This document shows positions 10,871 through 35,508 of a stretch of 39,010 bases of DNA, one piece after another. Location: assembly GCA_029561105.1 (NCBI GenBank), contig JAKQJQ010000033.1, forward strand, positions 1-39,010, read 5' to 3'. Position numbers and translations under genes: made by a program. Numbering within the stretch: the stretch's first letter is position 1; each line of letters starts with the position of its first letter. The stretch is from Bacteroidota bacterium (GTDB lineage Bacteria; Bacteroidota; Bacteroidia; Flavobacteriales; Flavobacteriaceae). The notes under the pieces are model-generated. The model was not told the origin of the DNA, ran no database searches, and saw nothing but the letters and a program-made list of their open reading frames with translations.

Positions 10871-11010
10871 AAGCCCATCCGGCTGTACGCTGCAAGCTTT
10901 TCTTCAAAAATGCTTTTTTGCTCCCACCGCAAAGCGCTTCGGTTGGTCGCGTTTGCAGTTGGGCAAAAAAAGCATTTTTATCCAAAAGGCTTTCCGCTGC
11001 CATCCGGGCT
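10871..11010 (+). repeat. dispersed hairpin repeat, copy 2
   Basis: About 140 bp starting AAGCCCATCCGGCTGTACG and ending CTGCCATCCGGGCT. AAAAATGCTTTTTTGC in the left half is complementary to GCAAAAAAAGCATTTTT in the right half, so the element can fold on itself. It is nearly identical in plan to copy 4 (34084). It sits between the sigma-operon terminator and the dnaG promoter. No protein is likely. Confidence 0.85.
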
Positions 11011-34083: not shown

Positions 34084-34225
34084 GGGCCCGAATCCGGCTG
34101 TACGCTGCAAGCTTTTGTTCCAAAATGCTTTTTTTCTCCAACCATAAAGCGCTTCCTTTGGTCGCGTTTCTGCTTGAGCAAAAAATGCATTTTCTCCAAA
34201 AGGCTTTCCGCTGCCATCCGGGGCC
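34084..34225 (+). repeat. dispersed hairpin repeat, copy 4
   Basis: About 142 bp from GGGCCCGAATCCGGCTGTACG to CTGCCATCCGGGGCC. It is closely similar to copy 2 (10871) in both ends and centre, with AAAATGC/GCATTTT inverted around a variable loop. It lies between the ftsZ terminator and yqeY. The bases 34226-34310 that follow hold short ATCAATTGTCAATT-type repeats and presumably the yqeY promoter. Confidence 0.85.
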
Positions 34226-34770: not shown

Positions 34771-34842
34771 GGCTGCGTAGTTCAACGGATAGAATGTCAG
34801 ATTCCGGTTCTGATGATGGAGGTTCGAGTCCTCTCGCGGTCA
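34771..34842 (+). tRNA. tRNA-Arg (anticodon CCG)
   Basis: A complete cloverleaf can be drawn. The acceptor GGCTGCG pairs with CGCGGTC, including two G-U pairs, with discriminator A. The D stem is GTTC/GAAT, and the anticodon stem TCAGA/TCTGA carries the loop TTCCGGT with anticodon CCG. The T stem is GGAGG/CCTCT with loop TTCGAGT. CCA is not encoded. The 3' end runs into the repeat array at 34911. Confidence 0.95.
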
Positions 34843-34850
34843 CGAATAAA

Positions 34851-34908
34851 TAGAAAAGTCCAAAAAGAAAAGAAAGCTCGCTTTCAATTTTCTTTTTGGA
34901 CTTTTCTA
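34851..34908 (+). terminator. long perfect hairpin behind tRNA-Arg, probable terminator
   Basis: The 21-base arm 34851-34871 is exactly complementary to 34888-34908. GAAAG/CTTTC extends it inward around a CTCG tetraloop, with only AA unpaired on one side. The T-rich right arm and following TTTTC suit termination. Confidence 0.75.
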
Positions 34909-34910
34909 TT

Positions 34911-35461
34911 TTCAGCGCGGAGCGCTATGAGGAACGGCGCAGCCGATTCCTCTCGTGACTGTTGACGATTAGACAAATCTCTTTTTCAATTTCTTTTTTG
35001 GCCTTCGGCTTTTTCAGCGCGGAGCGCTATAAGGAACGGCGCAGCCGATTCCTCTCGTGACTGTTGACGATTAAATAAATCTCCCTTTCAATTTGCTTGG
35101 CGTTCGGCATTTTCAGCGCGGAGCGCTGTGAGCAGTGGCGCAGCCGATTCCTCTCGCGATTTGTTGATTGGAGATAAATTTCCTTTTCAATTTGCTTTTT
35201 TTGGCCTTCGGCTTTTTCAGCGCGGAGCGCTATGAGGAACGGCGCAGCCGATTCCTCTCGTGATTGTTGACGATTAGACAAATCTCCCTTTCAATTTACT
35301 TGGCGTTCGGCATTTTCAGCGCGGAGCGCTATGAGCAGCAGAGCAGCCGATTCCTCTCGTGATTGTAGACGATTAGGCAAATCTCGCTTTCAATTTCTTC
35401 TTTCTGTCTTTTGCTTTTTCAGGGTAGAATGCCGTAATGAAAGGCGCTCTCGTTTTCTCTC
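34911..35461 (+). repeat. tRNA-linked tandem repeat array, five units of about 100 bp plus a degenerate sixth
   Basis: Units start with TTCAGCGCGGAGCGCT at 34911, 35013, 35112, 35216 and 35315 (periods 102, 99, 104, 99), with a decayed sixth at 35418. Each unit has hairpin 1 (AGCGC-GGA-GCGCT). In the better units this is followed by hairpin 2 (GAGGAA-CGGC-GCA-GCCG-A-TTCCTC). Next come CTCGTGA, a GACGATTAGACAAATCTC-like stretch, CTTTCAATTT and a spacer that alternates between GGCCTTCGGCTTT and GGCGTTCGGCATT. The CCTCTCG-to-CAATTT part also aligns with the tRNA 3' end and tail (34830-34890), which looks like unit zero. No gene is supported here or in the rest of the gap to 35508. Confidence 0.9.
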
Positions 35462-35508
35462 GCAAAAAGAAGCCTACATTAGATTTCACTGAAAAGCCAT
35501 CATCCCAA

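Follow-up and report, generated by a model that had tools for sequence, protein, structure and literature searches.

What kind of sequence grows out of the 3′ end of a tRNA gene as a chain of folded repeats? The question is raised by a stretch of 39,010 nt from a Bacteroidota bacterium (the window), in which a first-pass annotation described five units of about 100 bp and a decayed sixth directly behind tRNA-Arg(CCG). It took the tRNA end as unit zero of the array and offered three roles, namely a chain of small RNAs, repeated attachment-like targets, or a selfish tRNA-tail repeat.

The array is present as described. Five units begin with AGCGCGGAGCGCT, a sixth is decayed (Table 1), and the 14-nt motif CGATTCCTCTCGTG is found at 34825, in the tRNA T-arm, and again at 34944, 35046, 35145, 35249 and 35348, with at least 74% identity to the tRNA copy. 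The spacings from the tRNA through the units (119, 102, 99, 104 and 99) are those claimed, and the tRNA end does act like a unit zero. A pair of GC-rich hairpins had been assigned to each unit. AGCGC-GGA-GCGCT holds; CGGC-GCA-GCCG was drawn too short, since the fold in units 1, 2 and 4 is GAGGAACGGCGCAGCCGATTCCTC, or the same less one pair, with outer arms that match the tRNA T-stem; this fold is not kept in units 3 and 5. Overlooked was an inverted repeat of 24 bp without mismatch (34848-34871 and 34888-34911), which separates the tRNA from unit 1 and is part of the element. We name the three hairpins HP1 (with the inverted repeat), HP2 and HP3, and call the 17-nt tRNA 3′ end the core.

Table 1. 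Features of the array and its host tRNA gene in the window
Feature	Position	Strand	Basis
tRNA-Arg(CCG), host gene of the array	34771..34843	+	ARAGORN; Rfam tRNA, 59.5 bits
Core, 17-nt tRNA 3′ end AGTCCTCTCGCGGTCAC, left one of the two direct repeats that border the element in relatives	34827..34843	+	Sequence; compare L346, L348, L124
HP1: GAATAAAT and near-perfect 29-bp hairpin, apex AAAG-CTCG-CTTT, then TTTTC	34844..34913	+	
HP2 of unit 1, AGCGC-GGA-GCGCT; counterpart in relatives CAAAGC-GGA-GCTTTG	34914..34926	+	
HP3 of unit 1, T-arm-like hairpin GAGGAA-CGGC-GCA-GCCG-A-TTCCTC	34929..34952	+	
Decayed right copy of the tRNA 3′ end, CGATTCCTCTCGTGACT	34944..34960	+	
Array unit 1, 102 bp	34914..35015	+	
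Array unit 2, 99 bp	35016..35114	+	
Array unit 3, 104 bp; HP3 outer arm decayed	35115..35218	+	
Array unit 4, 99 bp	35219..35317	+	
Array unit 5, 102 bp; HP3 decayed	35318..35419	+	
Decayed sixth unit	35420..35473	+	Limits by eye

Judged by eye, units after the first keep only the recognisable 3′ half of HP1, the 5′ half being gone; they continue through HP2 and HP3 (decayed in units 3 and 5) to the start of a core copy. Because the units share the local 3′ half of HP1, we take the array to be a local tandem duplication reaching from mid-HP1 to the core copy, and it is best read as tandem growth after one insertion rather than as repeated insertion. Arrays in relatives also drop the HP1 5′ half, with periods that vary by locus from 42 to 190 bp. 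The period of about 100 bp is secondary; in relatives the element measures about 115-120 bp and has a complete first hairpin. A BLAST search with unit 4 gave five matches in its own genome at E<=0.001, all inside the array, and only four matches, of 27-31 nt, in the other genomes of a 199-genome draw from the genus. Since these own-genome matches all fall in the array, and covariance-model relatives stand behind three other tRNAs of the genome, a chance origin is excluded.

The tRNA-Arg loci of relatives have the same plan as the window in different letters. Their HP2 pattern, CAAAGCGGAGCTTTG, was found at 94 places, spread over 42 of the 199 genus genomes, an exact-pattern count that is a lower bound for presence of the element; the reversed control pattern occurs nowhere. 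One of the 94 places (G065 contig 13) was left out of the fetched set. Among the 64 pattern loci fetched, two of them fetched twice, 53 have a same-strand tRNA-Arg (ACG, TCG, CCG or TCT) or tRNA-Leu(GAG) directly upstream. The other 11 include some at contig ends, five preceded by a displaced fragment from the end of one of these tRNAs (L051, L070, L091, L092 and L103) and three that follow an unexplained end (L067, L074 and L084); one anatomy step used 51 of the 64 loci, leaving out these 11 and the two duplicates. In named genomes, the HP2 pattern combined with the HP1 spacing marked at least 118 stretches, and 80 of them were analysed. Titles of the stretches listed name Flavobacterium, Maribacter, Tamlana, Eudoraea, Euzebyella, Winogradskyella, Dokdonia, Christiangramia, Mesonia, Gillisia, Psychroflexus, Nonlabens and others, together with a few metagenome-assembled genomes labelled Nitrotoga, Rhizobium or Chitinophaga, labels taken from the titles alone. 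With one viral contig added to the 80 stretches, 66 of 81 follow tRNA-Arg or tRNA-Leu(GAG) (TCG 30, ACG 26, TCT 2, CCG 1 and Leu 7). About eight in ten located copies thus lie directly behind one of these tRNA genes and on the same strand. A scatter of copies without regard to tRNAs, named beforehand as the contrary outcome, did not occur. The exact window-type pattern was absent from the named genomes, and a DNA search of a phage collection matched only a 56-nt tRNA stretch, in four Listeria phage records.

A covariance model was built from an alignment (A1) of 43 copies, consisting of the window copy and 42 of 45 extracted first copies (L053, L090 and L096 were left out). In the genome of the window, where 45 tRNA matches were found and the tails of 36 inspected, it places the element behind four tRNAs: Arg-ACG, one of two Arg-TCT, Leu-GAG and the Arg-CCG of the window. 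Within the order it matched 22 of 395 genomes, in 14 of 108 genera, and in a phylum draw that overlaps the order draw, 16 of 395 genomes. Model searches over 40 genomes used strict filters at which weak copies are lost. Every listed match falls in one family, apparently Flavobacteriaceae. The tRNA loci with a gene for an M90 peptidase (Pfam PF06167, Peptidase_M90) behind them carry a complete element in 4 of 43 cases, 27 of the 70 loci fetched having no upstream tRNA.

Several other structures were seen at or near these loci. In the genome of the window, the tails L351, L352, L362, L369 and L373, behind tRNA-Val(TAC) and tRNA-Tyr(GTA), are long imperfect hairpins with differing outer stems and the common apex TCGAAAGCTCGCTTTCG, possibly a second family of tail hairpins. 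The window itself holds two similar imperfect hairpins of about 78 nt, 23 kb apart, at 10901-10979 (AAAATGCTTTTTTGCTCC...) and 34117-34193 (AAAATGCTTTTTTTCTCC...). In L223, L225, L226, L248, L255, L267, L271, L279, L067 and L074 the element stands behind a non-tRNA end, TTCGAACTnnnGTAnGTTTGGGTCAC or TTTGAAAATAGGTCTATATCGCTCAC, in tandem in L271; these ends are perhaps the right end of an island family. The idea that such 5′ junctions ('type B': L223, L267, L271 and others) are tmRNA or RNase P ends found no support from ARAGORN -m (17 loci) or Rfam (L084, L067 and L074). The tRNA-like gene in front of the element at L140 (G194 C1, near 836822) is recognised by ARAGORN only if a 103-nt intron-like insert is allowed, and the two lie directly upstream of a gene for an RtcB RNA ligase (Pfam PF01139, E 2e-33). 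In L247, L288, L289, L127 and L340 the element is chained with longer units, some of about 170 bp as judged by eye; most start with (C)TTAA.G. These units have a self-closing long-range stem and GNA or GNNA hairpins, and several are terminated by an HP3-like hairpin together with a copy of the tRNA end.

The element is a non-coding unit of about 115 bases, made of HP1 (about 29 bp), HP2 (6 bp) and the T-arm-like HP3. A first copy reads from the tRNA, ending ...AATCCnnnCGnGGTCAC, through GAATRAAT, HP1, TTTTC, HP2, HP3 and a second, more or less complete copy of the tRNA end to the old flank. In 46 copies HP1 spans 64-72 nt with 23-31 pairs; its apex is, for example, CAAG-CTYG-CTTG and its 3′ side usually carries a bulge of 1-2 nt. 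HP1-like hairpins without HP2 and HP3 also occur behind some tRNAs. HP2 of relatives is CAAAGC-GGA-GCTTTG. Where the element is intact, it closes with this repeat of its local tRNA 3′ end. A minority of copies have the repeat complete: it is identical at 15 or more of 17 positions in 19 of 97 first copies, and at 12 or more in 30. A separate count of 117 copies found 18 in which the final 9 nt of the core survive, 18 that end in TCGTGA and 81 with neither. The TCGTGA motif lies at positions 22-25 in all 18, as against 1.3% in shuffles, and is complementary to the left junction TCACGAAT. A four-way junction with a closing stem is predicted, under DNA and RNA parameters alike, in 21 of 21 TCGTGA units, a set chosen for the motif.

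Evidence of insertion comes from tRNA-Arg(ACG), where 11 of the 199 genomes hold the flank sequence GTCGAGGTCACTTAAG. It lies behind the element in three genomes (L342, L346 and L348), directly behind the tRNA in seven (L339, L340, L341, L343, L344, L345 and L347) and displaced in one (L349). The extra block in the filled loci is 114 bp (L342), 122 bp (L346) or 118 bp (L348), against 0 in the seven empty ones, and its last part repeats the 17-bp tRNA end. The filled L346 is 86%, 82% and 81% identical to the empty L345, L340 and L347 over 400 bp upstream, and 83%, 87% and 77% identical downstream from the first base after the core. For the filled L342 and the empty L340 the values are 70% upstream and 75% downstream; L348, from the genome of the window, aligns with the empty loci only in short stretches. 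Two 114-bp elements stand in tandem in L124, with the full core on each, and at L148, behind tRNA-Tyr, the right end is a 16/17 copy of the end of that tRNA. The element thus has a tRNA 3′-end repeat on both sides and a matching empty site, as at attachment sites (L346 and L342 against L340, L345 and L347; L124). Alternatively, the 'empty' loci could have lost the element by deletion between their 17-bp repeats.

The body of the element is shared between different tRNAs while its end is local. HP1 is 98% identical between L269, at Arg-ACG, and L291, at Arg-TCG; 95% between L237 (Eudoraea, Arg-ACG) and L291 (Gelidibacter); and 95% between L220, at Leu, and L054, at Arg-TCG, both from Flavobacterium. 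Mean HP1 identity over all pairs is about 0.70 when gaps are allowed, and an ungapped comparison of the 5′ arm in 46 copies gives 52%. Pairs between tRNA labels ('none' and 'edge' included) average 0.69, with 345 of 5539 at 0.85 or above, and pairs within a label 0.73, with 209 of 1842. Since HP1 is slightly more alike within labels than between them, vertical descent at each tRNA also contributes; this difference and the incompleteness of most right copies count against mobility as the sole explanation. By comparison, the 5′ arm of HP3 matches its own T-stem at 4.52 of 5 positions, against 3.64 when permuted (n=97; 2000 permutations, maximum 3.88), and the right copy matches its own core at 10.9 of 17, against 9.67 (n=97; 500 permutations, maximum 9.94). 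Within one isoacceptor the right copy still scores 10.89, against 10.17 permuted (best 10.39; n=95). To judge from these sequences, a shared HP1 with a local HP3 and end would result from a body that moves from one tRNA end to another; tandem exchange and gene conversion may also have had a share.

The idea that compensatory change conserves the structure, its absence having been named beforehand as a contrary outcome, is supported. In the consensus structure 94.3% of cells are paired, and 26 of 34 pairs show two-sided changes, 264 in all; none of 500 shuffles scored as high, and slid structures drop to 39-55%. The consensus was derived from the alignment on which it was counted. As HP2 was the search key, its conservation in the pattern-selected set is no evidence; independent HP2 variants come from the model and M90-locus searches. 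Template switching at palindromes can keep arms complementary without selection. It could explain complementary arms, but not the usual HP1 bulge or the GNA loops.

The loops and pairs themselves have a DNA-like character. HP3 is closed by C-GNA-G, with all four N present, in 108 of 200 hairpins and by C-GNNA-G in 15, against 8 and 12 of 1932 in shuffles and 38 and 9 of 917 in equally stable windows, a control that is conservative because the windows may include unpurged element copies; a hairpin control with stems of at least 6 fits HP2 and is too strict for HP3. GNRA tetraloops are rare in HP3 (2-3 of 200-204). Of 124 HP1s, 113 were measurable, and their tetraloops have C..G ends in 74 and T..A ends in 36, which implies a further pair closing a two-nucleotide loop. 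Such loops are familiar in DNA and rare in RNA. The d(GCGNAGC) loops are reportedly extraordinarily stable DNA mini-hairpins (Hirao 1994 and Yoshizawa 1997, cited in PMC6479982). G-U makes up 2.4% of the element's pairs (3.3% in single folds of 109 HP1s) and 11.1% in 73 tRNAs from the same loci. By these sequence criteria, C-GNA-G triloops, two-nucleotide loops and few G-U pairs point to folding as DNA over folding as RNA.

The element is too short for any gene, an integrase of its own included. The 3′ ends of tRNA genes are classic docking sites for phages and islands, and integrase genes adjoin the displaced tails at L070 and L338 (Pfam Phage_int_SAM_5 / Phage_integrase); at L091 and L092 similar frames are candidate integrase genes. 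The prophage at L338, whose integrase is Pfam-confirmed, shares the tRNA-end core of the element, while its left arm behind the tRNA has no HP1. A pattern scan of viral contigs gave one match, a prophage whose attR abuts a host copy of the element. Relatives of the L070 and L338 integrases were sought near the 80 named loci, a search that covers these two families only, and none was found. As candidate mobilisers, transposases of the Y1 (IS200-type) or RAYT kind were rejected: Y1 genes occur as often in genomes that have the exact HP2 pattern (27 of 42) as in those that lack it (25 of 38), and the genome of the window has none.

There is in our judgement an even chance that these sequences form a family of non-autonomous, non-coding mini-elements of about 115-120 bp that fold as single strands, insert exactly at certain tRNA 3′ ends and restore them. 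The tRNA-sense strand would fold as single-stranded DNA, either in replication or as the displaced strand of the transcribed tRNA gene, and the element would be carried from one tRNA 3′ end to another by an enzyme supplied in trans, most probably a tyrosine recombinase from phages or islands that use the same tRNA ends. After insertion HP1 may double as the tRNA terminator. The window array would be a later product, the stretch between mid-HP1 and the core copy having been duplicated locally in tandem. We infer the movement, no mobilising gene having been found near the 80 loci for the two integrases tried. More tentatively, it is possible that this is a new selfish DNA, a gene-less folded strand of about 115 nt moving between tRNA 3′ ends with HP1 and HP2 as its body, its HP3 arms pairing with and copying the T-arm of the target, the tRNA left intact, and the GNA triloops and two-base loops serving as recognition marks. 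Among the three roles first offered, repeated attachment-like targets or a selfish tRNA-tail repeat fits best.

The chain of small RNAs is less favoured, the loop types and scarce G-U pairs pointing to DNA. It belongs to a broader reading that we consider unlikely, a structured RNA trailer co-transcribed with the tRNA and acting as a terminator, an RNase III processing site or a small RNA of about 115 nt, one class of which closes as a four-way junction. The upstream, co-oriented tRNA in 53 of 64 and 66 of 81 loci would suit a trailer, as would the terminator-like HP1 with its A-rich 5′ arm and T-rich 3′ arm and the TCGTGA class (18 of 117), which pairs with TCACGAAT and has its closing stem predicted in 21 of 21 of the motif-chosen units. 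Speaking against it are the preference for C-GNA-G triloops over GNRA tetraloops (108 against 2-3 of 200-204), the two-nucleotide loops whose closing pair covaries and the G-U share of 2.4%, as opposed to 11.1% in tRNAs of the same loci; nor does any Rfam family cover it. The element also looks dispensable, because 39 of 43 M90-associated tRNA loci show no complete copy, though an HP1-like hairpin is present in several of them and L155 matches the model weakly.

Of similarly low probability is the reading of the units as by-products of attachment, either scars of integration at tRNA ends or decoy sites that spare the tRNA. The tRNAs concerned are integration targets (integrases at L070 and L338, similar frames at L091 and L092), prophage L338 shares the core, and other unit types that end in tRNA-end copies are chained with the element (L247, L288 and L289). 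Scars, however, are not expected to keep a three-hairpin plan over 14 of 108 genera with heavy covariation, and the left arm of L338 lacks HP1. A neutral origin, with tRNA terminators grown by replication slippage and template switching at palindromes and neither mobility nor function, is more improbable still. It accords with arrays that are local, have locus-dependent periods of 42 to 190 bp and consist of units sharing the local HP1 3′ half, and with HP1-like hairpins lacking HP2 and HP3 behind some tRNAs; against it stand near-identical bodies behind different tRNAs in different genera, the usual HP1 bulge and apex, and precise insertion between tRNA and old flank.

If the reading as a mobile mini-element is right, a minimal element lives on a classic phage and island docking site across a bacterial family. 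The combination of C-GNA-G loops with almost no G-U is a signature that may let comparative genomics separate DNA-level from RNA-level folding. The element makes a case for studying single-strand DNA structure in recombination, would account for unstable arrays behind tRNA genes, and bears on the annotation of tRNA 3′ ends and the prediction of island boundaries in Flavobacteriaceae.

The first-pass remark that no named element fits agrees with our searches of Rfam 15 and the open literature. In Rfam 15, searched with the window stretch and the loci of 12 relatives, matches at the element were all below gathering and mostly miRNA-like matches to HP1; above gathering there were only tRNA and one Flavo-1 elsewhere in L058. 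A known RNA family was therefore rejected. In the parts of the open PubMed Central literature consulted, no description of such tRNA tails was found.

The nearest likenesses are to elements recognised by their folds. REP/BIME sequences with RAYT (IS200/IS605-like) transposases are likewise short non-coding palindromes with very short loops; TY and CMA are among the REP loops in the parts of that account consulted, where GTAG REPs are put forward as miniature transposons (PMC3733652). REP feet carry GTAG or CGTC, according to the same parts (PMC3733652), whereas none was seen by eye at the feet of HP1-HP3 in alignment A1. The element also differs in lying at tRNA 3′ ends, in its length of about 115 bp, in having three different hairpins, in tracking its target and in showing no association with Y1 transposases. 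Integron attC cassettes have variable sequences and conserved folded sites with a bulge, with boxes GTTRRRY / RYYYAAC. The attC sites are recognised by structure over sequence, in the portion of the source consulted (PMC2727003). The element resembles them in its structure-conserved bulged folds, the variable terminal part of HP3 and its chains of units that end attachment-like, and differs in that its unit has no gene and its host site is a tRNA end. Like MITEs it is small, non-coding, structured and without an enzyme of its own; unlike them it is bounded by a target-derived 17-bp copy, and the scans made found no autonomous partner. With tRNA-targeting prophages and islands it shares flanking direct repeats of the tRNA 3′ end, the restored tRNA and the same target tRNAs, although it measures about 115 bp and carries neither integrase nor genes. 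Among these systems we would place it with the non-autonomous elements at tRNA attachment sites, though the chance that it forms a kind apart is considerable.
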